Below, piece after piece: positions 37,197 to 61,053 of a DNA stretch of 64,000 nt. Both the position numbers and the translations under genes were made by a program. The notes below the pieces were generated by a model that saw only the letters and a list, made by a program, of their open reading frames with translations, was not told the origin of the DNA and did no database searches. The DNA comes from Siphonodentalium dalli (lineage: Eukaryota; Mollusca; Scaphopoda; Gadilida; Siphonodentaliidae). Every line of letters starts with the position of its first letter. Position 1 is the first letter of the stretch. The stretch is from contig CP136066.1 of the NCBI GenBank assembly GCA_032622095.1, forward strand, positions 157,627,152-157,691,151, read 5' to 3'.

Positions 37197-37257
37197 ATGT
37201 TCAAGAGGAAATTGATAAGTCTAGATTTCCAACATCCCGAGGCTTTCAATATAAAAG
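37197..37257 (+). CDS. RTRAF: RTRAF exon 1
   Basis: 20 codons plus one nt (MFKRKLISLDFQHPEAFNIK, then G). Donor AAAG|gttata is weak, but the split Asp codon (G|AT) matches the human FNCKD junction. Phase 1. Confidence 0.9.
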
Positions 37258-40200
37258 GTTATACACGAACTTAGAAGCCGTGAATGATTTGCACGAAATT
37301 AGGAAAGTTTGATTCTGACTAGAAATTCACTTCAGTCTGCAATTTCCAAATCAATTGACAATAAAATGATTCATTAGAAATGAGGGAAGTCCATTTTGCT
37401 CTATAAGACAACTAATCCTAATGGCGGTGGTGGCTGAGAAAGGGGGGTTTGTTGTTGGCTTCGTAATCATCAGTACGTCGATAGTAGTGTCACTGTCGCT
37501 AAGCCTAAGTAATGGGGTTGTTGTCGTAATGTTTTATACATAGATGCACACCAGTCTCGCGTAGTGTCATGTGACAGGGGTCATTGCAGTGTTTTCTACA
37601 TAAATGCACACGTTTTCAGGCCTGGCAATATGGCGCGAGCGATTTTATCGCTCGCGCGTCGCCCGCGCAATTTCAATTTGGCGTGGGCGATATATCGCTT
37701 GCGCAACATTCACTACCCAACATACTTTTGCAGTCGTAATTTTGATGAGTTATCCGTTTGAAAACATATAAGGCAACGCGACATCGCATCTTTGAAGCAG
37801 GAGACACATGCTATGTTAACAGTCGGCTGCCACCGGTATATCTAATTAGGTCAAACCATGCTATACACCCGTCACCAGTGACAGACTGACGATTACATGA
37901 CCTAACTGTGAACGTGCAGTTCTACCCACAAATCATACCTTACCTACAAGGTAGTTTGATGAGCGCTGTTGACAGCGATGGGTGGGGCTACGAAGGAATC
38001 CACCAATCGCGCAACAGTGCTCGCTGACATGTAAACAAATGAGGTGAATGAAGTGACGAAAACAAAGAATAAATATCGCGATATTGTGCTATTAATTACA
38101 TGAAATGAGTGATTTATACATAGCACGGATGGGTTATGAGATGATACAAACATAGAAGTGATTTAATTTATGATAGTACGGAATAATGTATGTTTTGACG
38201 CGATAGAAGTGGACGAAATTTCACAAATGTACAGAAGCCGCGAATGTACCGATGGATTATATAGATAAAAGTATGGAACAAATAAATGCATGATATAATG
38301 ATTGATTCTGGTTAGGTAACTTGGTCACTCAGGTATAAAGGAACAAACACAAACATATCATGTGCATGTATGTACAATATATGCATGGCATAATGATTGA
38401 TTCTGGTTAACTTACAATAATATCTTACCATGATGTCACCTCATACATGTATTATACAGTATAACAGCATGTAATATATGATATAAATATATTATAATGA
38501 TTGATTGATTCTGGTTAACCATTAGGTCACTTGGATCAGGCATAAAGGAACAAACTCAACAATACCATATATGCAAGACATGGTATAACATTTATAAAAG
38601 TACTTTATTAAACATTAATAAGTTATACAACATTCATTTATAATTTCACAATTAATATATGATTATAAATTAATTAAATTTAAATATTATCACTTACCAC
38701 ATAATAAGTTACGGTATATGCAATATGACATATGTCAGTTTACTTGTATTTCATATCATGTTACAACATAAATACCCCATAAAACAGAAATTGCCCCTGC
38801 AAAATATTTTAGCCCCTGCAAAGTATTTTGGCGAGGGCGAATTTTAGCCCCTGCAGATTTTTCATAAGGCCAGCACTGCGTTTTGATATTTTTTGTAAGT
38901 TCATTTTCTTCCGTTCATCAACCAAACAACCATGCAGTTCGTTCCGTCCTTCTTCTTCCAATAAAATGCAACTCCCTGCAGAAGTATTTCCCCGTTTAAT
39001 ACTGAGAAAAATATGAGACCGATGACCAATTTTATTGCAGTTTCGTCATTGTGATAAAAGAATGCCTTTATCAGAACTTCAGAAGAAAAATAGTTATGAA
39101 TTGAAGCAGACGGCAATTATTTACGGTAACATTTCAATCTCGCGCCGACTGAGACTAGTCACTGGTGTGCATTTATGTATACAGTGCATTTATGTATACA
39201 TAAATGCACACCGTGTGCATTTATGTATAAAACGTTACGACAACGACCCCATTATCGTCACTGTCACTGTCAGAATTTTCTAATTCAAAAGTCTTATGAA
39301 CTGTAGTTTCGCCACCTCAAATTTAAATGCCTCACAGTTTTTATGAACCCAACTTTAAAATATTTTGTTTAGTACAGTAATGCCCTAAATAATCAACACC
39401 TTAACCACATCAGAATTATGGGTAATTTTCAGGTGAGAGCTTTCTGATGAATGGCAACAAGCCATATTTCTGACTAAATCCTGAAAAATTTCCCATAATT
39501 CTGCTGTGGTTAAGAAGTCGATAATTTAAGGCATTACTGTATGTCGATATTATAATGGTGTTCATCTATAAATTCTGACTGATTTTCCCCAGACACTAAC
39601 GCAACGTTATTCTAACATTGTGTTTGTTTCTGTTATGTTCAGGATATCCATTAAATAAATAGTTAAAACCTAGTTTTTATTGGCAAGAAGATCATATGTA
39701 TGGTTAAAATATGTAGGTAAACAACGTTTGATTTTAGAGTTATTCCTCCTGTATCTGGGATCTTAGCCAGTGGAGATTTACCGATCCCAACAAAGTACTA
39801 TTCGACTGTTTCCTGGGGATCTTAGTGATGGAACAATTCCAAAATTGCGGTTGGTCAACTTGGTAAAGTTTCAAGTTTGTGTGTGTCTCTGAACTCTGAA
39901 ACTTTGTAAGGTTATTCTTCGAGTTTGAAGAATTGTTTTTGGGAAATTTTGTAGATTTTGGAGGAGTGTGCAATAATAAGAAGACCAGATCTGCTTCAAG
40001 CTAATATTGTCCCATATATGTCTGCCAGTCGACCTGCTTTTCAAGCACATAAACCACATAACTTTATTAGTGGGGACTGCGTGTGTAAAAATTTTTTTTA
40101 ACTCAACTTGAAGTTAACAAAGTCAAGTTTGAGCCATTGCCATGGGTTTACTTCCGCCGTGCGTGCATGCATCAACAATTTCCTTTAGCACACCCTCATC

Positions 40201-43200
40201 CCAGAGCCATTGTTTTCTTTCTTCCGAAATTCATTAAAAAACATGGCTGCCAGCAGCCATCTTAGAATTTACTCTTTGCATGACTGAATCTTGTGGCACA
40301 ACCTTCAGGCCACATCCCTGATCTGATCACCACCAAATTGTATTTCGATCTATTCTTTGGGTGATCTCTAGAGGTGAGTCATCAATTTTTGTCCGAAATT
40401 TATTTAGAATGATGGCCGCCAGCAGCTATCATGGATTTAACATTTTCGCTATCCCAATATCTTAGCTGGTTTTCGTACGAGCAGACTTGGACTATTGCAC
40501 ACCCTGCAGCACTCATGAATATTTATAACAGAAAATTTACATGAATGTTGAGGATCACCTCTACATGGGAGCTATCACATTTTTTTTTAAGTTTGTTAAA
40601 AAACATGGCTACCGGTACTAGCAGCCATCTTGGATTTTAATCTTTGCATAACTAAATCCTTGGCATACCAGGTGACTCTACATACTATATCCCTGTTATT
40701 GGAGATTTTGTTTAGGATCACCTCCAGATTAGAGCTATCAAAATTGAATGATATTCGATTAAAAATATGGGCGAATGCAGCCATCTTGGATTGTACTCTT
40801 TGCATAACTAAATCCTTCTGCACACCCTACAGTCCTCATCCCTCATCTTAACATCATCAAACTTCATATGGAACTTCGGGGTGACCACTAGATGGGAGCC
40901 ATACAATTTTTCTGAATTTTATTGAAAAACAATTTTACTCTTGGCATGACTAAATCATTAGGCACACCCAAAGAGGTCACATCCCTCATCTAATTGTCAT
41001 AAAACTTTATATGGATCTTCAGGTGAATTTCGTTTATTTACAGATGAGAAAGAATTCAGAAATTTAATTCTCTGGTTAGAAGATCAGAAGATTCGTCACT
41101 ATAAGATAGAAGAGCGGGCCGCTTTCAGAGACATCGATAATCCAAAGTGGGAAGCGACATATTCAGAGGTAAATTTTGATGTGGAAGGTTCTATCATAGG
41201 CTTACATGTATATCTATTTATGCCGAAATAAGCTTGTGTGCCAATCCGTCTATGGGCACAATTTTGTCTGAGTTTGTAGTTATAATTTTATATCTTGCCA
41301 CAGATAATTTTGCAATTATATAGATATTAAAGGTACTCAATCCGATCAGAGCGTCCCCATCTCAACAGATTCCAACAACAATAATCCGATCAGAGCGTCC
41401 TATATTACTATTTCTTTGGCTTTGGGGGTAAAAAATATTTGATTCGAGTCGAGGAACCCATCAAACAAAGCTCAGAGTTATTAGATATTGATTTTTGAAA
41501 TTTGTTATTTTCTCGAGATGAGTACTAATAATAGCCTTCAACTGCGTAATCTGCTCGAGATGTGTACACCAAAACACTATTCAAACAGACAAGGATGGAT
41601 AACTCTAAAATCAAGTGGTAATAATAATGCAATTTTGACTGTGTTCTGGGCCAGAAAGTATTCCCGATAATGAAAAATAATAGATTTCTAAAATCGATAT
41701 CTAAAAAATCTGAGCATTGATGGGTGGCTTTCTCGACTCGAATAAAATATTTTTGACCCCCGAAGCCATTGAAATAGTAATTGAGAGGAGTTTTATCGGA
41801 TTGAGTACCTTTAAATATAACATTTAGAAAATGGATTTGTCAGTAAGCGGATGCTTTTGTGGCCATTTCCAATAGAATTTTTTAGTGGATTTATCCACTT
41901 TTATTACTTAGAAATTTATTGCGACATACATAATGTTGTCCAATCTTTTATCTATTCATTTCTTAGTTTCTACATATAATTATCAAGTCTGGATATAGTG
42001 TGTCTGCTACTTGCAGAATGAGGTCCCCAGAGGGTGAATTTAGTGACTTTCCTGCTCAGCGGGCTAAAGCATCACCAAATACAACCTCTGGGAACCTCAT
42101 TCTGCTTAGGCCTAAACTGATGTGGGAGCCCTATGATCAGATTGAAATTCCCCTGTTGATGTTGTGATGTTCACCCATTAGTCACCTCGATTATGCAATT
42201 TATCTTCTGCAAATTAAGGGATTTAGAAACTGAATAGTAGAGAAAAAGTAACTAAAACAAGTTAATTTCAGACTAGATACTTACCAGAAGATGAGGTCGA
42301 AGCAGAATGAGGTCCCCAGAGGGTGAATTTGGTGATACTAACCCTCTGTGTGGGATAGCCCACTGCGCGGGATAGCATCACTAAATTCACCCTTTGGGGA
42401 CCTCATTCTGCATATGTTAGGCACACTATGTCCAAGCTTTGGTGTTTCGGGTTCCCAGCTTGACTGTTGAAAGTTAATGTATTGAGAATATACATATTAC
42501 AGAAATCTCTCATTCGATTACGTGCGTGTGAAGTCCTCTTTAAAATCAATATTTCTCACTAAATATTTACTTTCTCTTGGTGACGAAACTTTAAGATCGT
42601 GATAATTTGTATCAGCATAAAAAAGTCAAGCTGGGTACCTAAAAACTGCGATCTCCAATGCTGGGTACCCTAAAAAAAAAAAATGTTGTGACAATGACCG
42701 GTTCAGTTTGATCAATAACCCTTCCATGACTGGGGCCTCCATAAATTTTGCGAAAACAATATGTCAATGCATTCTCTTATATATTCGAGTCTTCCATAGG
42801 GAGCCTCGCATATATAAGAGAATGCATTGACCAACAATATTTACCTTAAGTTTATAAGCCAGTGCATTATCTTATATAAGCCTATGGGAGACTCGCATAT
42901 ATAAGAGAATGCACTAACACAGGGTGTTTAATGATGCACCAGCGCAGCTCCCATCACGAAAGGGTTAATTAATCTATTCTGCTGAACTGTATTTTATCTC
43001 AATATTGCTGTTTGCAGTATCTCCGAGAACTTAACTGTCCTCACTCTCCCACTAGAAGGGTGGCCGCATGTGATTGGCTGTTGGGATACGCTGTCAGACT
43101 CGAGTATGGAGACAATGGTGAGTTCACGAAGTGTACAGTAATGCCCTAATTAATCGACTCCTTAACCACAGCAGAATTATGGGTAACTTTTCAGGATTAG

Positions 43201-46200
43201 CTTTTCGGGGAGAGCTTTCCGATGAATGGCAACAAGCCATATTTCCGACTAAATCCTGAAAAGTTACCCATAATTCTGCTGTGGTTAAGGAGTCCATTAC
43301 TTAGGGCATTACTGTATACACAATGCTGACTGTAGTCCAAGTCTTCTCGTACTAAAACTAGCTAAGATTTTGGGATGGATATGCTAGTATTTAGTCCGAG
43401 TTCCAGGCCCATGCATTCCTATGACACGAGTTACGCCCAGGATCTGTGGCGGGAATCTGTGGTGTATTTTACTCGATTCACCTAACAAAGCAGTACATGA
43501 TGCTATATACATCGGAAAGAGTGACATCTTATGGTCATAATGCTGTATAATAATCTAACTTTAATGTTAAATTACACATAGAATATTCCGGTTGATTGCC
43601 ACAAACATCGTTGTTTTTTCTGTTTGTTTACTTAACTGAGAGCCGAACTCAGGTTCCGAAGAACTTCGGCATTGTCCGGTGTTTGTTTTGGCCGAGACGA
43701 ATTTCGATACAAACAAAATGGCGGCCCCCATGATATTCTAATGCTCATTGTGTTTACACTGTTTTAAACTGTGAGATGGTTGTAATTCCCGTAATTTATT
43801 TAATGTATTACATTTATATCTTCAATATTTATTTAATCTATGTATTTATTTATTTATTGTCACGTATAATTACGATTACAATGGAGAATTCATCGTGCGT
43901 GGTTGATTGAAAATCTACGGAATATTTTCACCGGAAAATGCCGAACGCAGTTCGCAAGGTCAACTGAGTTCGCATACTTTAAAAAATATGTAAACACTGC
44001 GGCAAATGTCTCTTTTCACATTAAATTACCGCTTTCAATTCACAACCGATGTGGGTTTCAGATCAAATAGCATGTCTTCTGCGGAAAATATCCGTTTTCA
44101 TAAACAGTTCATGTCACTTTCTCCTGGATATTGTGTCCCGGCAAATTATAGTCCCGTATTTCGAAGTGAAATAAACCGAGTCATCGAAGGGAATCTGAGA
44201 AATCCATCGACTCCAATATGACATTTTATTTGCATAAATCACATTTATAAATTTTCTTATCGAAGTTGCACCAAGGTAGTACAAGCCATTGGTAGTGCAT
44301 TGCATCAGTTGTTGACCCGTCCATGATTGGAGCTTCCTGAAATTTTGCCAAAACACTGTGCCAATTCATTCTCTTATATATGTGAGTCTCCCATAGCGAG
44401 CCTCGCATATATAAGAGAATACATTGGCCTAACAATATTTATCTCCTTGACCTTTTAACATTCTACAGTTTCCTCTGCCGTTGTCAGTGACGTTGTTAGA
44501 GATGGTACAACAATTTCTCAGTATTGTTTTTTACCAGCATATTTAACCATTTAACCCTTCCATGACTGGAACTTCTTGAAATCTGTGAAACCCTGTGCCA
44601 ATGCATTCTCTTATATATGCGAGGCTCCCTATATCTACATTGGCCTAACAATATTTATCTTGACCTTGTAAGCTAGTGCATTATCTTATATATGAGACTC
44701 GCATGTATAAGAGAATGCACTGACACAGGATCTTCAATTATGCACCAGCGCAGCTCCTGTTATCAAAGGGTTAAGGTGCATGTCAAATGCATCATATTTA
44801 CATCATCCTTTGGTTCATTTCAAAAGGCCTGTTTCAAATAAAACTGGTTGTCTGAATACTTTTTCCAACTCTATTTAATTAACTCACTAAGTGCCAACTT
44901 TTTGTATGTTTCCACTTTCCGTGCGCCAAGTTTCCTGGTGGGTATCATGTTTTATTGATACACTTTCCGTTGGTTGTTCCATTCCATTCCCAAAATACTT
45001 ATTTTACTGGCTATGCGACCAGTTGTAGTCATAGGAACAACCTGTCATTGGAGCTCTTTATTCACAAAGGTTGTTGAGCAGGGAATGTTAAAGACATATT
45101 ATGTACTTATTCGGGTGCGTGAAACTAGCAAGTTAGTATTCAGGCACTATGCCAACTGGAAGAATATAGCATTCTAGTATAACATCGCCAAAAATTTCAA
45201 ACAAATCAACATTACCACTCCATAGAAAACATTGTCTGAACTACGTGCAATTGTAAATATTTACTTCTAGATTCGGGACGCAACTATCTGCGGTAAGCTA
45301 ACGAAAATGATTTCACCACCGAGAGTCACTGTATTTAATTAATATATAAGAATGACGGTGTTCAACTTGGATATAATATTTGTAAATATTACTACTTTGA
45401 GCAAGATTATTCCCCATTTCTATTTGATAACCCTACCGGAGTGTTTCACATCACTTTAAGGGTAATGAGAGTTATGTATCATGAATGGCATCACGTCTTA
45501 TTCAGGTCATCTTTGTCATATAGTGACAAAATTTTAGGCGATATTTGTTGTCTAAATGTCTGTTGTAAAATAATTCTTACCTAACCTGGAAATAGTATAT
45601 CTGATATTTGCAGAATGAGATTCCCAGATGGTGAATTTAGTGATGCTCTCCCGCACGGCAGGCTAGCATCATCAAATCCACTCTCTGGGAACCTCATTCT
45701 GCTTAGGCCTCAACTGCTATGGGAGAACTAGGATCAGATTGAAGTTCCCCAGTTGAAGTTGGTGATGTTCATCCATTTGTCACCTCAATTGTACATTTTA
45801 TCTTCTGCAAATTATGGGATATAGAAACTGAACAGAAGGGAAAAAGTATCTAAAAACAATGTTAATTTGAGACTAAAGATACTTCCCAGAAGATGAGGCC
45901 TAAGCAGAATGAGGTCCCCAGAGGGTGAATTTGGTGACATTCTGGGGACCTCATTCTGCAAATGACAAACTATTTGCAGGCTTAATTCTCATCAGACTTA
46001 CAGGCGCTATTTGGCTTTGATTTCTAATTTTATTGGTTTTCAACTGATGACTCCAAGTTATGGAATCTTTATGAAATGCAATTTGAAACAAGCCATCGGG
46101 CATATCATGCTACTGTGGTGGTGCTCTTGTTCTAAGTATTTCTCAAATCAATGCAAGAATTGTTAAAAGAAAGTCAGTAGTGTCATGGAATAAATTGTAA

Positions 46201-49200
46201 ATTAAAGAAAACTATATCTGTTACATGTATGTGAGTTCCGTTTGAGCTTTTATTACCATTGATAGTAACTATCTTGTCAATGCATTTGTCAGCTTTTCTA
46301 TATTCAAGCCACATGTCGGTTTGCACTCCAAAATACACCTTATAATATACTTTTGAAGTTTTCCCCATATCAAAATAGGTCGCTACATACCAGAACTACC
46401 TTTATATGAGCATTTATATGTCCCAGAGAGATATAAATAATGCAACATAATAGTTTTGGGCAATAGTTCGGTATACCGTTACCATTACCATCATTTTTTT
46501 CCATAATCAGTAAACCTTGAAGACAGTATTATCGTGGTTACATTCCAATATCCAACTTAACAGCACGTGCAGGGTTTATTTCAAAACTCTTGGATGTATA
46601 GCTGAATGATGCTTCCATAACTCGCAATTATTATCTGTATTTGAGATCAGCATACCTTGTCATCAATCCATGCATGATGCATGCAGACAAATGATGCATT
46701 GCCACTGTTTGTTAATCCATAATTGTATAAAACGGAGCGTTGGTGTGTGTGTTTCCTTATTTATTGTATGCTGTGTATCCATACAATTGCCTCCAAAAAC
46801 AGTTGACTTGTGTATAAAATGATCACTACTCAACAGGTTTTAAGGGATTAATTGAAATAATCGGTAATACAGTATACCGCGGTATGGTTTTAGGATTACC
46901 GCAGTATTTTTGTGCTTTAATACCGCCCAGCACTACAACATAAAGAGTCATAAAAAATACAACATCAAACACAATGATTGGGTCCCAATAAAATATTGTG
47001 ACATTTATATTCTGGAATTGGAAAGGGAATAACGGGTAACTCCTGGAAAAGTTATACAATGTATTGCAATATCTTAACATGAAACAATTTAAAAACTTCA
47101 CGCACTGCTTTCTCTTTGTTTTAATTGTTAAAATTATGTAGAACCATAAACAATTCAGAACGAAGACAGCTGTAGATGTTCTTTCCATGGTCTATGCGAC
47201 CGCTTATTAAAAAATTAAAACAGATACAAACAAAAGTATCTCAAATTTATCGAAAAAAAATAAACAAAAGACATATTTTCAGCGCTATGGAATCTTCTGC
47301 ATATGTATGTTTTGAGATACTCTTACCAAATTTTACATATTTTTGCAGTTCGAACGAGCCATGTCCGTTTAACCAATTATGAATTGGTATGTATGTTTAT
47401 TTGCAGTTGAAAAATACAAGGGCGTTGTGGCGAATGATGCAGCAAAGCCTGTTATTGTTACAAGTGCCCAGTCAACAAATCCATTAGATGCTTTAGATTG
47501 TAAGTATAACCACTAGAAAGGCAATTCAAATAAAATGTCTGTGTTCTCAGGCAATTAGATCTCAATTTTGAGATGAGGGAGGGAGGCTAATAATTTTTAT
47601 TTTTTTTAATCTGGAAAATATACTCCAGAAACAAAGCAAAAATAATTTTCGTTGCTCGAATTATTGAAAAAAATGTTTGACAAGCCTTTATAAAAGAATA
47701 TTTCAGTGACAAGGGACGTTCCTGAGAACAAATAATTTTTTGCTATTTGGCCTAACCTCTCAAGCAGGATGGTCTTCTTGCACCCATGAGAGTACAGTAA
47801 TGCCCTAAATAATTGACTCCTTAACCACAGCAGAATTATGGGTAATTTTTATGGATTTATTCGGAAATATGGCTTGTTGCCATTAATTGGAAAGCTCTCA
47901 GTGAAAGCTTTCCGAAGAATGGAAACAAGCCATATTTCTGACTAAATCCTGAAAAATTACCCATAATTCTGCTGTGGTTAAGGATTCAATTATTTAGGGC
48001 ATTACTGTACCCCTTTGTAATGTCTCTCTACTACTGATCACTTTGGATACACTTCTCATTCTTACATTTACACCAGAACTTATGGCTCATCAGTAATCTG
48101 TTTAGTAGGATACATGTACTATGATTTAATACAGGTACATTTAAATGCTTAATAAATTGCACGGTATAATATATTATCTAATATTAACTACCTAGCACCA
48201 TGTTGGATATTAAATTTCTCCCAGGTAATTAATTCAATGTTTATTGCAATATCTGCTTACAAAAAGCATACAATCTCGAGCCGGGACCACCCCCTAATGT
48301 GAACTAGATTATTAGGGAACAAGTGTAAACAGAGAAATATATTCCCTGTGTTGTTTCTTAAATGTTTATAAAGTTCCCCATCAGAATAGGTCATAACATC
48401 AAAATGTTCTTAAGTTTTGTACTCAAGCCTTCAAATAGTGTGTCTGTCATTTGCAGAATGAGGTCCCCAGAGGGTGAATTTGGTGATGCTAGCCCGCTAT
48501 GTGGGGTAGCATTACTAAATTCACCCTCTGGGGACCTCATTCTGCAAATGACAGACACACTATTTCAAGGCTTGTTTGTACTGGTGGAATATGATCTCTG
48601 TGGGCGTAGCTAGAGTAGAGATTCATGGTATGATCTAATCTACTGACAGATGAACCAATTATCTATCTGCAATATATTAATAAAACAAATTTAAATTATG
48701 TATTTGTAGTTAACGACCCTGATTTTAAAGCTTGAGTTACATCGCACACGAACCAATTATATATCTGCAATATAATAAAAAAAATTCAATGATGTATTTG
48801 TAGTTAACGATTCTGATTTTAAAGCTGGAATTACATCGCACACGAACCAATTATATATCTGCAATATAATAAAAAAAATTCAATGATGTATTTGTAGTTA
48901 ACGATCCTGATTTTAAAGCTGGAGTTACATCGCACACGAACCAATTATATATCTGCAATATAATAAAAACATTTCAATGATGTATTTGTAGTTAACGATT
49001 CTGATTTTAAAGCTTGAGTTACATCGCACACGAACCAATTATATATCTGCAATATAATAAAAAAATTTCAATGATGTATTTGTAGTTAACGATCCTGATT
49101 TTAAAGCTGGAGTTACATCGCACACGAACCAATTATATATCTGCAATATAATAAAAACATTTCAATGATGTATTTGTAGTTAACGATCCTGACTTTAAGG

Positions 49201-52200
49201 CTGGAGTTACATCGCTGGCGATGCTGCTACAAATCCCACCTTATCCAGATCACTTGGAACAACTCAAGGTTGGTGACCTTAAAGTGATAATGATAATAAT
49301 AATAATAATAATCGATCCATTTAATACAAGCATTCTACTCGTTCCTCGTTCCTATGCGTGAGACAATTATTACCCTGATGAGCCTGAACACGCAGTAACC
49401 ATCTACTGCTCCCAGTCAGGTACCCTTTTCAACGAATGGGTGGTGCGAAACGGACATAGTACGAGTGACCTTGCTCAAGGGTCACAACCTGGTGCGAAAT
49501 ATGAATAGCGTACAATCCAACAATTGCATGTCGATCAATTGGGCCAACCCACTGCTGTGTGAATCTCACACATGTTGACAGCGAAGGCAAGTCCGACATG
49601 CTAACCACTGGATCATAGAGCACGGATATTCCTATACTGTGTGCAGAGTGAAGATGTCATCTCCCCTATATAGAAAGTTAGTTAATAATGAACTGTGGGT
49701 TAGGGCTGCAACAATTCACCGCGGTTTCGGTGAATCGCGATGATTACCGGCGGTGCAATATGCAGTTCCGTAATTATTCCGGTACATTTTCTATCCACGT
49801 TTTTGTAGTCTAAACGCATGCCCAAGCACTCTGAGAGGACACCTTTCATTGGATGTAGCCGCAATAATTAAAAAATCTTGTTCTTTCGCTATCGCTAGGG
49901 TTGATATCTCGATGACCTTTGAAGTTTAAACTATAGTTGGAACTATTGGACCAGCCCTCAAAATTATGAATAATGTCGCACAGCAAATTTAATGCTGTGG
50001 CATCTTAGATTCCAAATGTTGCCACTGTTTCCACGGCATTGCTAATTACCTTGGCTAATTTTGAGAACTGATCAGACCTTGATAAAATTGACGTTCGGAG
50101 GTGGGGAAACGCCAAACATTGGCATGCCAATTTAAATTGCCTGTATGGAAACAATTTGCTTTTTTCATGCCTTTGAGAAAGACGGTGTGTGGAAAACCGA
50201 CAACACCAAAACAATATGCAAAATTTGCCAACTAGGCAAAAGTTGTAAACCGGTCCAATTTTCAGTCTGGAATGTATCGTGATACAAAAAATTGTGCACT
50301 TATCGAATCATGAGGTGGGCGTATCATTGCAGCCCTATTGGGGGTTATTTGCGTGATCAGAAGCTAGATTCAGTAGAAGAATGTTTCTTCCGAAATCACT
50401 GAATCAATTGTCATTTACACATTTTTGACTGAGAATTCAGACCCCATATTTCATGGTTTTAACACACGTTTGTGGTATGTTTTTAAAGAAATATGGGCAA
50501 AAGTTAGATAGAACGGACCGGTTTTCCATTTCAAATTTACAGTAATTGAATCTGGAAATTAGAACTGGGAATCGGGTCATTCTATCAATAAAAATTTCCC
50601 CAACAAATAAAAAGGTTGCATGCGTGAGATTCCGGGACCATGCGCACAGGTCTGGGAAACAAAAAATGACTGCCGAGGCTTAACCTTTTCATGGCGGGAG
50701 CTGTGCCAGTGTATTCTCTTATATATGCGTGTCTCCCATAGGGAGCCTCGCATATATAAGAGAATGCACTGGCTTACAGGATCAAGGTAAATATTGTTAG
50801 GCCAATGTATTCTCTTATATATGCGAGACTCCCTATGGGAGACTCACATATATAAGAAAATGCATTGGCACAGGGTTTTCGCAAAATTTCCCGCCATGGA
50901 AGTGTTAACCATATTTTATATGGATATCCCAGATATGACAAAAGAGGCTCAATGCCTTTGAAGTGGGTAAATATGAATTACAGAAATATAAAAGCCTGTA
51001 GAATCAGGTAGAATCATTGTTATCAAGAAGAATGTGAGATAATAGATGTACTTTGTTCTTATTTTCATTGCCAGTCATCCCCCAATAATGAGATGTCATG
51101 TATTGAAATCATTGTTTTGTAAACATCAACTGTCACACTTACCGTAATGTTTTCACTGCAGTTTTTTACCCTGTGCCAATGCATTCTCCTAACAATTTTT
51201 TATCATTTTTTTTAAATAAATGTTTCTGACAATTTTTAGGACATAAAATAAAAAACATCCATTACCCTGCAGGGAGCCCCACACATATATAGAAGCATAT
51301 AGAAGAGTGTCGTCTGCTCATGTTTGTCTGGGGCTCTGTATGGGTGAAATTATAGAAAATTGTGAAGAATTCTAGCCCTTTGAAATAAGATGATTAACCC
51401 TTTGGCAAGTAGAACGACATATATGTAGACATAACTTCAATTAATCATCTGATTTATAAATGAACTAGCAGGGTTACCCGGCGTAGCCCAGGTTAAAGTG
51501 ATGTGAAACCCTCTGCATGCTGTGGATATTTGGTGGGAATAGAGGAATCGTTACACGTGTTAGACGTATTCATACACGTATTCTCATAAATTGTATATCC
51601 AAATAACATCACAAAACATGATTCTTAAACATGGAATATAAGTTGTGGCTCACCTTGTCGATTGTCATTTTGTTTATCGTAAATTAATCCGTTCCACCAA
51701 TGAAGAAGTATTTATTCATTTACAACTGTGTATACCTCAGACATTATGATATGAAACATGAACATCATAAATATATTAGTTCGCAAAAATAAAAGTCGAC
51801 AATTAGGTTTTACATATATAGAGATGTATCAATCAATCTAGTGGGTTAGACTAAGATTTTGAGGACACCTGGCTATCATATCTCCACGAAGATACAGATG
51901 TTTTAAAGAAATGTCCAGGTGCTCCTCTGTTCATGGCGCTATATATTGACGAAATATTCTCAGTTTAAAATAAATGTTGCTATGCAAGTATATCAGCTAC
52001 ATGCTCCTGACAGAGCGAGATTTTGAGTGGTTTATTGTAAATTTGTATGTGGAAACTATATTGAATGGAACAGATTCAATTGTGTTCTAACATATACATG
52101 ATCCATTCTTATACATGTATGCAATCCTCTGACGGTTCGATGTCTCCCAGTTTGCAAGAATATGTGTATATCTTAAATAAAATGATAAATATATGTTTAA

Positions 52201-55200
52201 TGCTTTCTTCTATGTATCAGTTTTGCTAGCTCATTATACTTTTTTAATGCGCACGATTTGATTCGTCGTATCATTTGAGAATGACGTATATGAATTTGAT
52301 GGTGATTGGCACTAAACATATTTTTTATCAGTTTTGGTGACCCTCCTGTCCCAATTTCTGACTCAAGCGGCACAACTTTTGTCATCATTAAACCACACAC
52401 TTAAACTCATTATTGAAATGCAAATATATATATACAATTGGTGGAAATTGGCAAGTATACAAATTCGTATCAAATTTAGGGCCCCCATATCTCTCACCCA
52501 AACGGCACCAATTTGGCGTATCTAAACCACACGATTAGATTCCTCGTATCAGGGAGAATAATATGTATCAAGCTGGTGGAAATCGGCGCTAAACATACTG
52601 TTTATCCTTAAACCACACAATTAGACTCCTGATATCATGGTGCTGATTATTTATAAGTTTGGTGCTAATCGGCGACTAAACAAATTTTTATAAAATTTAG
52701 TGCCCATACCACCCCATCTCTCACCCAAACAGCACCAATATGGCATCTGTAAATCATACGATTAGACTCCTCGTATCATGGATAAGAATGTGTATCACTT
52801 TGGTGGAAATTGGCGCTAAAAATATTGCCTATCAATTTTGGTGCCCCTCTGCCCTCCTGACTCGAATGACGCCACTTTTTTGACAGATTTAAGCCACACC
52901 ACTAGACTCCTCATACTATGGGGATGATATTGTATAGGTGTGGTGGCAATCGGCGACTGAACCCATTCTTATTAAATTTAGTGCCCCACACAATCTTTCA
53001 TCTATTTGACACCCTTAAATCACACAATTAGATTCCTTGTATCATGGAAAAGAATATATATCAATTTGGTGGAAATCGGCGCTAAAATTAGTTGTATCAA
53101 TTTTGGTGCCCCTCTCCCCTTCCGTGCATCCCTGACACAAACGGCGCCACTTTTGACATATTTAAACCACACCATTAGATGCCTCATATCATGGGAATGA
53201 TTATATATAAGTTTCGTGGCAATCGGCTACAAATTTTTTTTCTGCCCTCCCCCTTTTCTGCCCCTGACAACAACGGATTCACTTTAGAAAATTCTAACCC
53301 ACACCATTATCTTTCTCGTAAAAAGTTACACCAAGTAGACCCCTTTGGTGCCATCTAGATGGCCCATCGGCGCTAACATTAGTTTCATCAATTTTGGTGC
53401 CCCTCTCCTCTTCCATGCATCCCTGACTCGAGCGGCGCCACTTTTAACATATTTAAACCACACTATTAGAATCCTTAGATCATGGGGATGATTATATACA
53501 AGTTTTGTGGCAATCGGCGACAAAAAATATTTCTGCCCCTCCACTTTTCTGCCCCTGACAACAACCATGTCACTTTAGAACATTCTAACCCGCACCATTA
53601 TCTTTCTCGTAAAAAGTTACCACTAGTAGACCACTTTGGTGCCATCTAGATGGTCCCCTGTGAATTTCTATAGAACACAGACAGACAGACAGACATTCGC
53701 AAATATAGATATAAGATTGTATAGGAGATATTTTGATTAATATAATGTCCCAATGTATAAGTGCAATAGATTATGATAGCACATGTAAACAGAAAATATA
53801 CATAAATTAAAATGAATTATTGGACCCTTTTGATCCAAACTTGTTAATAATTATTTGCTATGACGTTGACGATAAATTCACACATGACGTCATGTATAAG
53901 ATGTTATAAATACTCTCCAAAGGGTTAACCCTTCTATACTGGAGCGTTCTGAAATTTTGCGAAAACCCTGTGCCAATGCATTGTCTTGGAACAGGGTTTT
54001 CACAAAAATTCAGGAAGCTCCAGTCATGGCAGGGTTAAATAGCATGCTTACTGTTAATGAATCTGGTAAACTAGTTTCAATGACAAAACTTAAATTTATC
54101 AAATTGTTTGCACCAAATACCACAGAATGTAAATGATCTTGTTTCTTGTATTACTAAATTTCATCTTTCAGGCAATATGTTTATTGATTAAAGACAAATT
54201 GTCCAAAGAAGCCATAGAAAAATTTGAAAGCCAAACAGGAAAGGTAAATACACAACTTTATTATATTTTCATTAACTTATTCTGCCACAATAAAAATTGT
54301 ATCCCCACTCCCAAAAGCTTCAAAATGTTATCCTACACCCAGCGATGACTGACTATTTATCCAAAACTCGCGAGCATGTTCTGAGTTACATTCGTTGAAA
54401 TCATTGAATGAAATTATGTAATTTTCGTTATTTGGGGGTAGTGTCATTTGGCATCATTTTAACGGAAATGTATAGTGAAGTAATAGTAAAATCATGAATG
54501 AATATCATGATTTACTTTATATTAGATTATTTTGGTATCCTTGTTCATAATTTAACGTAAACATTAGGTTAATTTTCAGTATCTGAGACATTTTATAGAT
54601 ACCTTTTATTAGCTCAACTTGACAAAGTCAAGTTTGAGCTATTGTCATGGGTTGGCATCCGTCGTCCGTCCATCTGTGCATCCGTCTACACTTACATTTG
54701 GATACTTATGTGGCTATTAATAAGAAAAATGGATAGTTGCATGTACATGTATGTGTCTAATTTCCACATAACAGCGTTGAGATGAACCCTAAAAAATTAT
54801 CTATTTGGCCCAGATTTTGTAGTCACTCAAAAGTTGGAAACAAAAAGTCCATAGATTTAGACATCCACGATCTTCAATATGAGGTGTTTGGACAGTTATG
54901 TGGCTAGTCACCCAATCAGGAAACTGTCAGTATTACTTATTCCACTGTCCTAGTTGCTGTATACAAGTTTTTGAGTTTCATCAGCTATCAGCATATCCCT
55001 CATCTGATTGTTATTGGATGGATCTTCGTGGCACACCCAAGAGGCCACATCCCTCATCTGATCATCACCAAACTTCATATGGATCTTCGGAGTGACCTCT
55101 AGAGGGAGCCATCTTGGATTTTACTCTTTCTGTTAGTATTACTGCATTCTTTTGCACTCCATACAACCAAACTATTTCAACCGATTAATCCCAAACTGTT

Positions 55201-58200
55201 TATGGATCTTTAGGGAAACCTAATTACTAGTTACTTAAGCATATAAACTGTCCGAGTTCCTTATCGCTCTATGGACTATAATATATGGCATGATCCCTTT
55301 CCAAGTTGACCAACAGTGTCATTGACACTTTCATTAGAGTTTGGTCTGGACAATCTGTTGTGAAAAATATAATAGACACAATACCATAGTTTAACTGTTC
55401 TCAGTGACAAACAAAGTTTCTCCTCCCGTGAGATGCGAGGATTATTTTCACTTGGCTAACACCTCGTGAAAATAATCCTCCGGATATCAATCGAAGAGAA
55501 ATTTTGTTCATCACCGAGGACAGTTAATTATTGTCTATTTACTTTATTTTACCCCCGCTACAAAGTTGTTAGAGGGGCGGGGGTTATACTGGACTGATTA
55601 TTTAGGGCATTACTGTACCATGACGCAACACACCCATGTGAACTGTAAAAAACAAACAACGGATCGTACCAACGCAACATAAGAACACAATTTGGGAATC
55701 TAAACACTGATTTTTCATGCTGGAATATCTTTCAACTTTAAATTAATATTTTAACTTTTTTTGCAGAAAGAGTTTATTCCATTAGAGAAGACAGATTTAG
55801 GATTTGAAGTAGGAGGTGAGTATCATGTAATAGCTTGAACGTTATCAAACTGCGTGATTAGTTACCACTAGAGGGGTGTGTGTCTCTTTTGGGGTCCCTT
55901 TCCCCCAGCCTAAATTTCACACCGACATGATCCCCTACTCGTTCCACAGATTAATGTCTAAATCACCTGTAAATCTTCCAATAAATAAAACCAACAGGGA
56001 ATGATACACATATATACTTTGCTGACCGCTGGTGATCAAATACACAATGTATAACTTGTTTCTGAAAGACATTGAAATGGACATCGCTAAAAGCCATGTT
56101 TGATTCTGCCTGGTTGCAGTGCTATTATGTTGTCAAATAAAACAAATTCCTGTGCCGATTTATACAATTCATATAGAGCCAGTACAATCTTGCATTTTGA
56201 CGGGGCCTACAGGCACAACCACCATACCTGGCAAATGCAGGAATTTTTATCAGCCCTGTTAAAACCATGGCCCCAGTATGGAGAAAAGCCGACTAACGAG
56301 AGATTAAAGTTCAATCAGGAACATGCGAACAGTAAATAGAAATAGGTTGTATTCAGCAAAATTCTTGAAAACATGTGGGTGCAAAATCTCATGAACTTGT
56401 TAAGTTGTTCAATGTTCAACAAGTAGTTGAAATGTGTTTGAGTTAAATTTAATATCAGTATATACTTTATGAGATTGTGTTTATTATTTTGGAATATTCT
56501 ATGAAAAATAAATTGTATATGCATAATACAAAAACACAATAGAGAGACATTACAGAACATTCCCATTTGTTACAGTAATTTACAGTAATGTAATAGTGAT
56601 TTAAGTTTTTATTACAAATCTACAACATTTATACAATTTCATAAAATCAGCCCCGTCATAGAAAACACAATGCCTTTTATTAGGCCCGTGCCATTTAAAA
56701 ATCGCGAAGACTAAGCTGTTGGAGGTAAATCAGGAATAACTGAAGGTACAAATATGTTTTTATGAATATAGTGAAGTCAGGCATAAAAATAAACTTCCCA
56801 TTCTATAGTTTCGTCTGCCATTGTTGGTGATGGTGCAAAAATTTCTCAGTATAGTTTTTACCAGCATATTCAATCCTGCCATTGACTGAAGCTTCCTGAA
56901 ATTTGTGCAAACCCTGTGCCAATGCATTCTCTTATATATGCGAGTCTCTCATATATAAGATAATATTGGCCTAACAATATTTACTTTGACCCTGTAAGCC
57001 AGTGCATTCCTATTCATATATATAAGAGAATGCACTGGCGCATGATATTTAATGGTTTACCAGCGCAGCTCCCATCATGAAAGGGTTAAACTTGACATAA
57101 AAAACATTATTACGATTCATTTATTTTATATTTTTATATCACCATGGACATTCAGAGTTTGGTAAAGACAGTCGGAATGAAAGCACTTGCCAATTGATTC
57201 TCGGCTTATGCCACAGCGGTTGGTTGTGATTGTGTCACGTACAGTGAATGGGATTCCTACTTCTACTCGATAAAAACACACATTCATTGTATTGCTTTCA
57301 CATCACCAAACATTAGTTTGGACACACATCCTATATCAGACTTTGCATAAACACTGTATTGTGAACCCGTGTTGACTGGACTGTGAGAAGGCCTTCTCGT
57401 ACCAACCAACATTTGATCAAAGATAAACTACGACACAGACTATCTGTTCTACATTTTATTAATTTATTAATGAAAACTGCAATTGAAGGCCCTCCAATGT
57501 AAGACTTTTATTTTGGCAAAGCATTTAAATATCTGGATGATGTAAAATCTCGCAGAATTTTCTATGTTTGATTACTAATATTGTTAGCTCAACTTTACTT
57601 TGTAAAGTTTGAGCTATTGCCATGGCTTGGTATCCGGTGTGCGTGTATGCGTGATTCGTCAACAATTTCCTTTAGCGCGGGCTACAGTTCGTACCTTTGG
57701 TCCGATTATTATGAAATTTGTCGTGGATGTTGACATTGACATGTAGATGGGAACAAGTCATTTTGGGGTCATTCAGATAAAAAACATGGCCGCCAGCGGC
57801 CATCTTTGATTTCAAAATTCAATCCATTAGCACGGGCTACAGGCCATACTGTTCGTCTTATTGTCATGAAATTTGTCATGGATGTTAATATTGACATGTA
57901 GATGGGAACGAGTAATTTTGGGGTCATTCTGCTAAAAAACATGGCCGCCGGCAGCCATCTTAGATTTTACTCTTTGCATGACTAAATCCTTTGACACGGG
58001 CTACAGGTCGTAACTTTGGTTGGATCATCATAAAATTTGCAATGGATGTTAACAAAGACATGTAGATGGGAACTAGTCATTTTTGGGTCATTCGGGCAAA
58101 AAACATGGCCGCCAGCAGCCATCTTGGATTTTACTCTTTGTATGACTAAATCCTTTAGCACGGGCTACAGGTCGTACCTTTAGTTTGATATCATGAAATT

Positions 58201-61053
58201 TGTCATGGCTGTTGAAATTGGAATCTAGATGGGAACGAGTCATTTTGGGGTCATTCGGACAAACAACATGGCCGCCAGCGGCCATCTTGGATTTCATAAT
58301 TCAATCCATTAGCACGGGCTACAGGTCGTACTGTTTATCTGATCATCATGAAATTTGTCATGGATGTTAATATTGATACGTAGATGGGAACGAGTCATTT
58401 TGGGGTCATTCGGCCAAAAAATATGGCCGCCAGCAGCCATCTTAGATTTTACTCTTTGTATGACTAAATCCTTTAGCACGGGCTACAGGTCGTACCTTTA
58501 GTCTGATCATCATAAAATTTGTCATGGCAGTTGAAATTGACATGTAGATGGGAACGAGTCATTTTGAGGTTATTCGGCATTAAAACATGGCTGCCAGCAG
58601 CCATTTTGGATTCTATTCTTTGCATGACTAAAGCTATCAAATTTTTTGGAATTGTTGGAAAACATAACCGCCAGCAACCATCTTAGATTTTACTTTTATA
58701 TACATGTATATACATTGTATATATCTCTTCATGTTGATAAACTAGTATTAGACATTCAACTTTCCACATTCCTAATCACTCCATCGACAGTAACACATTA
58801 AATTATTCCCTTTCCAAGTTGAGCTACAGTGTCATTGACACTTTCATTTTTGTTTATATTGTTGTTTTACCTACCAGAACTTTTTATATTATATTAGAGT
58901 AAGTATATGAGTTAATTAGCTTGTGTTGTTCTTTGAATATGTTTAAATCAAAGTGCCTCCAAAAAATATGGGTTGAAAAAATGTGGCTCAAGTATATGAA
59001 AAGTGGCTCAAAAAAATTCACATGTGGCTAAGGCGGTGGCTCAAGCAAATTTTGGGCCAGTGTGAACACTGCTGATATACTAATACCAGAAACAGCGGGT
59101 TTCATCCACTGAGGTTTCCCCCAGTGGATATAGGGGTCCCATTCCACCAAACCTAGCATAAACCGTGGCGTAATTGCCTAAATGCAGTGCAGTCCGGTGT
59201 TGTTCCGATTTCCTTGTACTGAAGACAAATTTTTGGGAAGATTTATTAGAGAAGGCAAATTATGAGAGAATTGGATATGTGAGTTGTAAACATACTGTTA
59301 ATATCTTTACATGTTAACCCTTTCATGACGGGAACAGAGCTGGTGCAGTAAGATCCTGTGCCAGTTTATTCACTTATGTATGCGAGTCTCCCATAGGGAG
59401 AATGCACTGGCTTACAAAGTCTAGATAAATATTGTTAGGGCAGTGTATTCTCATAAATATGCAAGGCTCCTTATGGGAGACTCGCATATATAAGAGAATG
59501 CTTTGGCACAGGGTTTTCGCAAAATTTCAGGAAGCTCCAGTCATGGAAGGGTTAATACAGTGTCTAATCAGATCCTTTTTGAGGATTTCCTGAACCTGTG
59601 AAATAATGAAATAAGCATTCTGCTGGAGGTAGTGTGCATATCTCTGTTTTTAACCCAAACATAGGCCAAAATGCTTTATCAGGTTCTGCATTGGCCCAAA
59701 ATTAATATTTGCCAATTGTTTTGTCAAATGAAAAGCGGGCTAGCATCACCAAATTCACCCTCTGGGGGACCTCATTCTGCTTAGGCCTCATCTTCTGGGA
59801 AGTATCTATAGTCTCAAATTAACATTGTTTTTAGTTACTTTTTCCCTACTGTTTGGTTTCTATATCCCCTAATTTGCAGAAGATAAATAGCATAATCGAG
59901 GTGACTACTGGGTGAACATCTACTTCAACTGGGGAACTTCAATCTGATCGCAGGTCTCCCATAGCAGTTGAGACCTAAGCAGGATGAGGTTCCAAGAGGG
60001 TGAATTTGGTGATGCTAGCCTGCCGTGTGGGATAACGTAACTAAATTCACCCTCTGGGGACCTCATTCTGCAAATGGCAGACACTATATCCAGACTTGCA
60101 TTTGGCAGTGTTAGATCATGCCACAAATCTCTACTCTGGCTAATGCCCGCAGAGATCATACAAAACCTTGGAGATTTTTGATGTTTTTGACAGGGAACCT
60201 TATAAAGTCCAAAAATTTACACTGGCAATATATTTCTTAGTTATTATCTGTCCTCAATACTGTACTTCAATGGAGGTGAATTTTCCAACCCAAACTTGCA
60301 TTATTTTACGTGACTTTAACATTGAATTTAATTACCCAGGAGAAATGCCATAATTGTAAGTGACGGGATGCAAAATCGCTCACAAATTCACTTAAATCGT
60401 GAGTATGCAAGGGTCCCTATTGGAGACTCACATATATAAGAGAATGCATTAGTACAGAATTTTCACAAAATTTCAGGAAGCTCCAGTTATGGAAGGGTTA
60501 AATATGCTGGTAAAAATCTACACTGAGAAATTTTTGTACCATCACCAACAACGGCAGACGAAACTATAGAATGGGAAGTTTATATTTATGCCTGACTTCA
60601 CTATATTCATAAAACATATTTTTACCATCAGTTATTCCTGATTTACCTCCAACGGCTCAGTCTTCACGATTTGTAAATGGCAATAAGAAACTAAGAAATA
60701 TATTCCCCGCACTATTTTTTTACTTTATAAGGTTCCCTGTCAAAAAGTTCCAAGGTTTTTTATTTGTACTGGCGGAATATGATCTCTACAGGCGTTAGCC
60801 ACAGTAGAGATTCATGGCATGATCTAGTGGCAGTGTGAACCCTGTCCCTGATACTTCACTCTTGTTTATGATTATTCTCAATCTTTTTTTTATTACAGAT
60901 TATATTATGGCTGATGCAGCGAAAATTCTACGTCTTCTTTATATTAAAGACTTGAGAATTATGCAGACTAATATAAACCATGCCATTGTGGCCGTACAGG
61001 CACTAATTGCAAATCCAAAGACTGATTCTCGACTTGGAAAAGTCGGAAGATAG
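37197..61053 (+). CDS. RTRAF: RTRAF (C14orf166/hCLE), eight exons, 247 aa
   Basis: Join 37197-37257, 41044-41168, 43018-43117, 47407-47499, 49180-49268, 54172-54243, 55767-55815, 60899-61053. In vertebrates RTRAF belongs to the RTCB-DDX1-FAM98-Ashwin tRNA-ligase complex, binds RNA polymerase II and shuttles in RNA granules. The joined protein follows the RLL family along its whole length: MFKRKL start, LEDQKIRHYKIE (about residues 32-43), VRLEYGDN (about 88-95), NDPDFKAG (about 128-135), AIVAVQALI and the RLGKVGR C-terminus. All junctions have GT/AG and agreeing phases. No frame damage seen, so it is probably functional. An ATG directly 5' (37194) would add one Met; 37197 has A at -3 and matches the human MF start. 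Confidence 0.95.
39375..39539. mobile_element. MITE A in intron 1
   Basis: TA on both sides (39373-39374 and 39540-39541). The centre is deleted: the left arm stops early and the right arm is longer. Confidence 0.75.
40099..41020 (-). repeat. Repeat D fragment abutting exon 2
   Basis: Diverged, several units (atggctgccagcagccatct, ctttgcatgactaaatc). It starts at the aactcaactt end and is cut off about 20 nt before the exon 2 acceptor; the polypyrimidine tract follows directly. Confidence 0.65.
41044..41168 (+). CDS. RTRAF: RTRAF exon 2
   Basis: Acceptor tttatttacag; donor GAG|gtaaat. 42 codons including the one split with exon 1 (DEKEFRNLILW ... ATYSE). Includes the highly conserved LEDQKIRHYKIE. 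Ends in phase 0. Confidence 0.97.
41169..43017 (+). other. RTRAF intron 2: MITEs
   Basis: 41340-41810 contains a pair of related blocks (ccgatcagagcgtcc twice near 41341 and 41388) and a later inverse-like block. MITE C at 41984-42438 with both palindromic ends. MITE B at 42715-42968 with two hairpin modules and TTAA on the right. No coding exon seen. Confidence 0.65.
43018..43117 (+). CDS. RTRAF: RTRAF exon 3
   Basis: Acceptor tgctgtttgcag; donor AATG|gtgagt (strong). 33 codons plus one nt (YLRELNCPHSPT ... VRLEYGDN). WLLGYAVRLEYGDN matches the human WLLGLAVRLEYGDN. Phase 1. Confidence 0.97.
43136..43314. mobile_element. MITE A beside the exon 3 donor
   Basis: TA flanks at 43134-43135 and 43315-43316. 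Arms of about 80 bp. Starts 18 nt downstream of the exon 3 end, so the hairpin would form next to the 5' splice site in the pre-mRNA. Confidence 0.8.
46451..46935. mobile_element. hAT-type MITE, 485 bp, perfect 8-bp duplication
   Basis: Perfect flanking duplication caacataa at 46443-46450 and 46936-46943. Ends TAGTTTTGGGC and inverse of TAGTGCTGGGCGG, with ggtataccg-type subterminal repeats at both ends. Non-coding. Confidence 0.8.
47407..47499 (+). CDS. RTRAF: RTRAF exon 4
   Basis: Acceptor tttgcag; donor GATT|gtaagt (strong). 31 codons including the split Val (VEKYKGVVANDAA ... NPLDALD), plus one nt. This linker is the least conserved part compared with human, as expected. Phase 1. Confidence 0.93.
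47500..49179 (+). other. RTRAF intron 4: MITEs and decoy acceptors
   Basis: MITE A at 47795-48007 with TA on both sides. MITE C mini-copy at 48424-48574 with a perfect 8-bp duplication. A 94-bp tandem array of exon 5 acceptors runs from about 48648 to the true exon. No extra coding exon. Confidence 0.8.
48424..48574. mobile_element. MITE C, 151-bp mini-copy, perfect target duplication
   Basis: Ends caagccttcaaatagtgtg and inverse. Duplication tttgtact at 48416-48423 and 48575-48582. Only the outer palindrome remains. The uninterrupted target (tttgtactggcggaatatg) is present in a related repeat near 60760. Confidence 0.85.
48648..49203 (+). repeat. Six-copy 94-bp tandem array of the exon 5 acceptor
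   Basis: Acceptor plus exon start (tatttgtag|ttaacga) recurs with first exon-like bases at 48710, 48804, 48898, 48992, 49086 and 49180, exactly 94 bp apart. Each unit holds ~58 bp of intron (gaaccaattatatatctgca...) plus the first ~35 nt of exon 5, breaking in gagttacatcgc. Only the last copy continues into the full exon and a donor. Copies 1 and 4 have a TGA (gcttga) where the others read gctgga. Copies 2 and 4 share gattctg, 3 and 5 gatcctg, hinting at duplication by pairs. Confidence 0.95.
49180..49268 (+). CDS. RTRAF: RTRAF exon 5
   Basis: Sixth and only complete copy of the 94-bp unit. Acceptor tatttgtag; donor AAG|gttggt. 30 codons including the split Phe (FNDPDFKAGVTSLA ... HLEQLK), matching human NNPDFKAGVMALANLLQI. 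Ends in phase 0. Confidence 0.95.
49283..49645 (-). repeat. tRNA-derived SINE at the start of intron 5
   Basis: On the minus strand the head reads tccagtggttagcatgtcgg, a good pol III A-box context, followed by a weak B-box-like gtgagattcac. The body contains gggtacctgactgggagcag. The 3' end is an (ATT)n tail, seen on + as (aat)n at 49285-49311. It begins about 15 nt after the exon 5 donor. Confidence 0.6.
49701..50337. mobile_element. hAT-type element with BED-finger relic, 637 bp
   Basis: Ends TAGGGCTGCAACAATTCACC and inverse of TAGGGCTGCAATGATACG. Flanks ctgtgggt (49693-49700) and ttgggggt (50338-50345) agree at 6 of 8. On the + strand at about 50145-50250 two frames carry VWKQFAF and then KDGVWKTDNTKTICKICQLG: the W, F and CxxC pattern of a BED zinc finger from a hAT transposase. 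The rest of the transposase is missing. Confidence 0.7.
50680..50908. mobile_element. MITE B with two hairpin modules
   Basis: TTAA at 50680-50683 and 50905-50908. Hairpin modules at 50697-50773 and 50798-50875. Confidence 0.75.
50909..51393. repeat. Intronic stretch with MITE J fragment
   Basis: 51165-51370 matches the inside of the 13268-13733 MITE (agggagccccacacatatat), but the hairpin module has been deleted to a stub (gcattctcctaac). 50909-51164 shows nothing. Confidence 0.6.
51394..53928. mobile_element. TTAA-flanked element hosting a Helitron-like copy
   Basis: TTAA at 51394-51397 and 53925-53928. Short inverted ends ccctttgg. Apart from the 2.2-kb Helitron-like insertion at 51465-53709, only about 285 bp belong to it. 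The inverted ends are short, so this is tentative. Confidence 0.4.
51465..53709 (-). mobile_element. Helitron-like element, copy 2 (inverted)
   Basis: On the minus strand it starts A|TCTATATTTGCG with a (gtct)n run and ends accctgCTAG|T, the same ends as 8117-13014. It has several sub-repeats (gtggaaatcggcgctaaa), no hAT insertion, and lacks the 11110-12121 segment. It thus gives the uninterrupted structure of the family, about 2.25 kb. Confidence 0.6.
53925..54038. mobile_element. MITE B mini-copy without hairpin module
   Basis: 114 bp including flanks; TTAA at 53925-53928 and 54035-54038. Only the outer arms (gaaattttgcgaaaaccctg and inverse) remain. It shares its left TTAA with the preceding element. 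Confidence 0.7.
54172..54243 (+). CDS. RTRAF: RTRAF exon 6
   Basis: Acceptor ttcatctttcag; donor AAG|gtaaat. 24 codons, phase 0-0 (AICLLIKDKLSKE ... SQTGK), aligned with human AIRILVQERLTQD. Confidence 0.95.
54244..55766 (+). other. RTRAF intron 6: repeat D, palindromes
   Basis: Repeat D (minus) at 54610-55334, with aactcaactt-type start and gtgtcattgacactttcat end. A palindrome at about 55390-55528 (ttaactgttctcagtgac and inverse, inner gattattttca). A C/G-run end of an E/F-type repeat (acccccgc ... gcgggggt) at 55552-55585, and a 23-bp right end of MITE A at 55593-55615. No coding exon seen. Confidence 0.6.
55767..55815 (+). CDS. RTRAF: RTRAF exon 7
   Basis: Acceptor ctttttttgcag; donor GGAG|gtgagt (strong). 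16 codons plus one nt (KEFIPLEKTDLGFEVG), aligned with human ALDKHILGFDTG. Phase 1. Confidence 0.93.
56870..57089. mobile_element. MITE B, decayed
   Basis: Right TTAA at 57086-57089; the left end is decayed (caatcctgccattgactgaa). Two damaged hairpin modules. Confidence 0.6.
57585..58847 (-). repeat. Repeat D, full-ended copy
   Basis: Minus-strand copy with both ends (tagctcaactt at 57585; gtgtcattgacactttcat at the other). About eight units of ~160 bp with the atggccgccagcggccat motif. Shorter than the 19411-21863 copy and without its recent duplications. Confidence 0.75.
59314..59555. mobile_element. MITE B in intron 7
   Basis: TTAA at 59314-59317 and 59552-59555. The first module has lost its right arm; the second (59438-59510) is near complete. 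Confidence 0.7.
60899..61053 (+). CDS. RTRAF: RTRAF exon 8, C-terminus and stop
   Basis: Acceptor ctttttttattacag. 51 residues including the split Asp, then TAG at 61051-61053 (ADAAKILRLLYI ... RLGKVGR). The last 20 residues are nearly identical to vertebrate RTRAF (AIVAVQA, DPKTDHRLGKVGR in human). Confidence 0.97.

Follow-up and report, generated by a model that had tools for sequence, protein, structure and literature searches.

Minisatellites (VNTRs) expand by unequal exchange or slippage. A duplication that takes in a splice junction has been described in potato RdRp, where two tandem copies span the boundary between intron 1 and exon 2 and a cryptic GTAAG donor gave rise to a new intron, confirmed by RNA-seq (PMC4974935). 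For novel introns in Drosophila, NMD has been proposed to remove the mis-spliced products of weakly spliced introns (PMC2809761). Literature searches by name yielded no direct account of decoy-acceptor arrays. Here we analyze a six-copy tandem array over the junction of intron 4 and exon 5 of RTRAF in Siphonodentalium dalli. Unless otherwise indicated, coordinates are those of the whole 64,000-nt stretch of DNA analyzed (the window; CP136066.1:157,627,152-157,691,151, forward strand).

RTRAF and the Array at Exon 5

RTRAF belongs to the RTCB tRNA-ligase complex (PMC8668186). A tblastn search with human RTRAF matched exons on both sides of the array, and exons 4, 6, and 7 were located by frame scan. 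The spliced ORF of eight exons is intact (744 nt with stop, 247 amino acids, C-terminus ...KTDSRLGKVGR). Exon 4 joins exon 5 in frame (...DALD-F-NDPDFKAG...), and the full ORF passes through copy 6 of the array, so that this parental junction still serves an intact RTRAF. In a Pfam profile search of the 2.2-Gb genome, RLL (PF10036) matches were confined to this locus, suggesting that RTRAF is single-copy. The gene features are as follows:

37197..61053, + strand, RTRAF (hCLE/CGI-99/C14orf166) gene with 8 coding exons (tblastn with human RTRAF, frame scan, spliced ORF)
37197-37257, 41044-41168, 43018-43117, 47407-47499, 49180-49268, 54172-54243, 55767-55815, 60899-61053, + strand, RTRAF exons
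47500..49179, + strand, intron 4, 1680 nt, phase 1 (donor ATT/GTAAGT, 7.97 bits; frame check)
49180..49268, + strand, exon 5, 89 nt, with donor AAG/GTTGGT at 49269 (7.86 bits)

The array and its copies are located at the following positions:

48652..49215, + strand, six-copy 94-bp tandem array over the intron 4/exon 5 junction (TRF and sequence)
48652..48745, + strand, copy 1, diverged; decoy acceptor end 48709 (8.0 bits, top of the six); branch-point-like TTAAT 30 nt upstream; TGA 48733
48746..48839, + strand, copy 2; decoy acceptor end 48803; TGA 48884
48840..48933, + strand, copy 3; decoy acceptor end 48897; TGA 48978
48934..49027, + strand, copy 4; decoy acceptor end 48991; TGA 49015
49028..49121, + strand, copy 5; decoy acceptor end 49085; TGA 49166
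49122..49215, + strand, copy 6; true acceptor end 49179 (6.2 bits) and first 36 nt of exon 5

TRF described the array as 94 bp x 6.0 (94% matches, 0% indels, score 987), in agreement with the sequence, in which six TTTGTAG/TTAACGA acceptors are spaced at exactly 94 bp. The first-pass annotation had reported this spacing in front of exon 5, with the whole exon and a donor on the last copy only, and both observations were borne out, since exon 5 and the donor at 49269 follow copy 6. The 94-bp unit that it described stands for the acceptor spacing and needs correction as to uniform make-up. Copies 2-6 consist of a 4-nt ACAC filler, 54 nt of intron, and 36 nt of exon, whereas copy 1 lacks the filler and has an intron part of 58 nt, which offsets the missing filler and keeps the acceptor spacing at 94 bp. 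Compared with copies 2-6, the intron part of copy 1 shows 5-6 substitutions and one 4-nt indel, and its exon part 2-4 differences; copies 2-5 differ from one another at 1-4 sites. At the sensitivity of the genome search, the array unit had no match besides itself. An origin from a dispersed element or retrocopy was rejected, as at that sensitivity the unit is unique in the genome and RTRAF has no other match.

The copies had also been suggested to have arisen by duplication in pairs (2/4 and 3/5), which conflicts with the mosaic sharing of variants. Copies 3 and 5 have only the majority state in common; one variant site is shared by copies 2 and 4, another by copies 2 and 3, a third by copies 4 and 6, and the TGA by copies 1 and 4. 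At unit offsets 38 and 66, all four combinations are present across copies. This conflict and the mosaic are signs of exchange between copies or of recurrent change rather than of neat pair duplication. Exon-part variants in copies 2-5 include P>S, G>stop, and V>I; over the decoy exon parts as a whole, a stop is found twice, along with two missense changes. Two synonymous differences (GAC/GAT and AAG/AAA) distinguish copy 6, the real exon 5, from decoys 1-5. The decoy exon parts thus seem to have changed like non-coding DNA, the direction expected if copy 6 alone codes, although the numbers are small.

Other repeats were observed in intron 4 and in the window. At 48437-48568 lies a near-perfect, MITE-like inverted repeat with an acceptor-like CATTTGCAG, and related sequence occurs in an intron at locus L069. 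A second long inverted repeat occupies 47790-48012, with arms of roughly 100 bp (ACAGTAATGCCCTAAATAATTGA...), part of which recurs near 43140, just after exon 3. Adjoining the array at 48600-48645 is a stretch of ~40 bp that was matched at dozens of genome sites (a dispersed repeat end). Arrays of ~162-164-bp units are present at 19595-21545, 57668-58632, and 63378-64000; arrays of period ~164 were also seen at L027, L036, and L055, which suggests a dispersed tandem-repeat family.

Splice Signals in the Array and in Intron 4

Acceptor and donor matrices were built from this genome, using exons of CCT and proteasome genes and RTRAF. The true acceptor (copy 6) scored 6.2 bits, which places it near the 14th percentile of the 139 acceptors sampled; their scores lean high because boundaries were picked by the best score near each protein match and not by transcripts. 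Copies 4 and 5 scored the same as copy 6, copies 2 and 3 slightly lower, and copy 1 reached 8.0 bits. Outside the array, AGs of intron 4 at 48134 (9.2), 47706 (7.3), and 48076 (6.6) scored above the true site. A high acceptor score does not by itself mean that a site is used.

The decoys had been said to lack a nearby donor, and the scan agreed: between 48652 and 49268, no GT reached more than 2.2 bits, compared with 7.9 bits for the real donor at 49269 and 3.2 bits for the lowest sampled donor. Mini-exons from array donors were discarded on the same ground. Recursive or ratchet splicing between units was also rejected, as the end of exon 4 (...GATT) and the decoy start (TTAAC) regenerate no GT.

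Branch-point-like motifs (TTAAT, CTGAC, and CTAAT) were found 30-72 nt upstream of the copy 1 acceptor only; for copies 2-6, none was closer than a CTGAT at 82 nt. We considered branch-point loss in copies 2-6 as an explanation and set it aside: the loss is real, yet 43 of the 139 sampled acceptors equally lack yTnAy in their search zone (the AG exclusion zone plus 15 nt, after PMC1431707). The contrast was therefore given little weight.

Predicted Products of Decoy Use

To predict the products, exon 4 was joined to each decoy and read through to the exon 5 donor, giving extended exons of 183 to 559 nt. The first-pass annotation placed a TGA within nine codons of copies 1 and 4 and had the remaining decoys run into a TGA in the intron part of the next unit. 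The spliced reading matches this, with the TGA at the 8th codon after decoys 1 and 4 and at the 27th codon after decoys 2, 3, and 5. Measured from these stops, the exon 5/6 junction would follow after 100-533 nt and the last junction after 221-654 nt; hence, by the usual rule, all five decoys are predicted to yield NMD-eligible stops.

Junction Duplications Elsewhere in the Genome

To place the array in context, 147 conserved exons with 267 junctions were sampled from CCT, proteasome, Ras, and myosin genes, in two stages: 44 CCT and proteasome exon loci, then 103 exons from Ras, myosin, and the remaining CCT genes. A junction passed the strict test if at least 24 of the 30 bases across it were repeated within 260 bp. 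Junction-spanning tandem copies were present in 5 of the 44 first loci, and tandem arrays make up about 6.7% of bases over all 44. Over the whole sample, a local direct copy was found at 5/267 junctions by the strict test (1.9%) and at 8/267 by hand (3.0%, 95% CI 1.3-5.8%); as the sample comprises four gene families, ~3% is a rough estimate for this one genome.

The pass rate in the strict test was 2.2-3.7% for intron positions 30-200 nt from a junction (Fisher p = 0.32 against 5/267) and 6.5% for deep intron positions, which are clustered and not independent; none of the 147 exon centres passed. Duplications across junctions are therefore roughly as frequent as those in nearby intron, and exon interiors are spared. 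Enrichment of junction arrays at exons is refuted by the similar rate in nearby intron. As the junction rate is below that of deep intron (1.9% vs. 6.5%), some selection against junction copies is possible.

Donor-side copies were found at L066 (58 bp x 7), L041 (39 bp x 3, one donor broken), L069, L155, L037, and L044, and acceptor-side copies at L023 and L038, the latter degenerate. One parallel in layout is a proteasome gene:

G000:C9:184587463-184587678, - strand, PSMB7-like exon (L066), with the array at about 1666-2074 of the strand-corrected locus

Here the last ~45 nt of the exon and the donor GGTAAGA are present in seven copies that run into the intron with a spacing of 58 bp, and every decoy donor is intact. 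At L037 and L041, use of the decoy donors would give in-frame (3n), stop-free insertions, which are NMD-invisible, indicating that shelter by NMD is no general requirement here. Tandem junction copies in CCT and myosin genes were noted at L037, L041, L069, L155/L170, L044, L023, and L038. In two myosin paralogues that are 97% alike, the junction duplication is common to both, and one carries a further tandem copy of ~100 bp within an intron. Global alignments of CCT paralogue pairs, made for tandem-copy turnover, were noisy. About ten near-identical myosin-head genes are clustered at G000:C4:274.2-275.5 Mb, and CCT genes often occur in close pairs 40-170 kb apart, which are either real duplicates or retained haplotypes.

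Origin and Maintenance of the Array

The array is best explained as a tolerated minisatellite-type expansion whose occasional decoy products are removed by NMD (probability roughly 0.8). A tandem duplication would have taken in the end of intron 4 (~54 nt) together with the opening 36 nt of exon 5. Unequal exchange or slippage may then have raised the number of units to six, with patches of sequence exchanged among the copies. The innermost acceptor alone would keep the full exon and donor, and exon-defined splicing would mostly select copy 6, the outer copies being intronic and spliced out with intron 4. Tolerance may be explained by the innermost acceptor being the only one near a donor. The introns flanking exon 5 (1680 nt and 4903 nt, or 1.7 and 4.9 kb) suit exon definition. 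Where flanking introns are long, human transcripts favour the splice sites that lie nearest across the exon, and the upstream preference of 3' sites under exon definition is reduced, not abolished (PMC9225289). Because this preference is only reduced, some leakage to copies 5, 4, or the strong copy 1 is plausible; given 8.0 vs. 6.2 bits and the sole branch-point-like motifs in reach, leakage to decoy 1 could be large. Occasional decoy use would lead to a premature stop and NMD, at a small cost with which the array could persist. The array would then be nearly neutral, one probable case of frequent tandem duplication in this genome, tolerated at junctions at about the rate seen in nearby intron.

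Against a neutral reading, all five decoys are NMD-visible, which a regulatory design would also require. Under regulated unproductive splicing, selected decoys would act as a rheostat, with NMD of decoy mRNAs and with copy number or trans factors setting RTRAF output. Such a design would be in keeping with an NMD-eligible stop from every decoy and with a weak true acceptor (about the 14th percentile of the high-leaning sample) beside a stronger decoy 1, and the place of RTRAF in the RTCB tRNA-ligase complex (PMC8668186) makes RNA-level feedback conceivable. On the other hand, duplicated intron should contain non-3n frames and stops by chance, the intact AGs of the nearly identical copies 2-5 are uninformative on selection, and the similar arrays at a few per cent of junctions in proteasome, CCT, and myosin genes make a cause specific to RTRAF unnecessary. 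We judge this explanation unlikely. The tuning of RTRAF level by unproductive splicing that had been suggested for the array gained no positive support, in view of the ~3% base rate, the other high-scoring AGs, and the unconstrained decoy exon parts; the young neutral expansion proposed beside it holds up. A copy-number-variable version, in which the decoys, chiefly copy 1, divert a fixed share of transcripts to NMD and unit number sets RTRAF output, seems quite improbable. If it were true, splice-site copy number would be a genome-wide source of expression variation in S. dalli.

Tandem arrays are generally prone to copy-number errors, and misassembly or collapsed reads could have produced the array from a single-copy junction. 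The copies, however, carry distinct variants, copy 1 being diverged by 5-6 substitutions and indels in its intron part; similar arrays are present at many unrelated loci, and one is common to two myosin paralogues. An artefact is very unlikely on this evidence, though the number of copies may still not be exact. Intron gain under way, with a decoy acceptor and a donor in the exon part defining a mini-exon, would follow the potato precedent, in which the same duplication class made a new intron (PMC4974935). Nevertheless, the GTAAG donor of potato pre-existed in the exon and has no equivalent in the RTRAF array, where no GT exceeds 2.2 bits against 3.2 for the lowest sampled donor, and we give this possibility almost no credence.

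With tolerated expansion as the preferred reading, the RTRAF locus itself is ordinary for this genome, and the class of junction arrays is the more useful object. If the ~3% holds, the genome sets near-identical splice sites in natural competition with one another at many places, where RNA-seq could test proximity across the exon, copy number against leakage, and the hiding of cost by NMD. Ambiguous junction reads are also to be expected when genes are annotated or RNA is mapped in genomes of this type.

Comparison with Known Systems

Like minisatellites, the RTRAF array has near-identical head-to-tail units, mosaic variants (a pattern of exchange that recurrent mutation could mimic), a diverged edge copy, and a unique locus. 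In contrast to them, its unit includes a splice acceptor and the start of a coding exon, as seen in one assembly only. The PSMB7-like array resembles it in carrying an exon edge and splice site head-to-tail into the intron, and differs in lying on the donor side with all GGTAAGA kept. As in the novel introns of Drosophila (PMC2809761), mis-splicing would give stops and NMD may hide the cost, but those are new introns, whereas none is predicted here. The potato RdRp duplication likewise holds the 3' end of an intron, its acceptor and tract, and the 5' part of the exon; it has two copies and a usable GTAAG, whereas the RTRAF array has six and lacks a usable donor. Without such a donor, the array represents no intron gain on present evidence. 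Judged by its sequence, it is of an already known kind, a tandem duplication across an intron-exon boundary.
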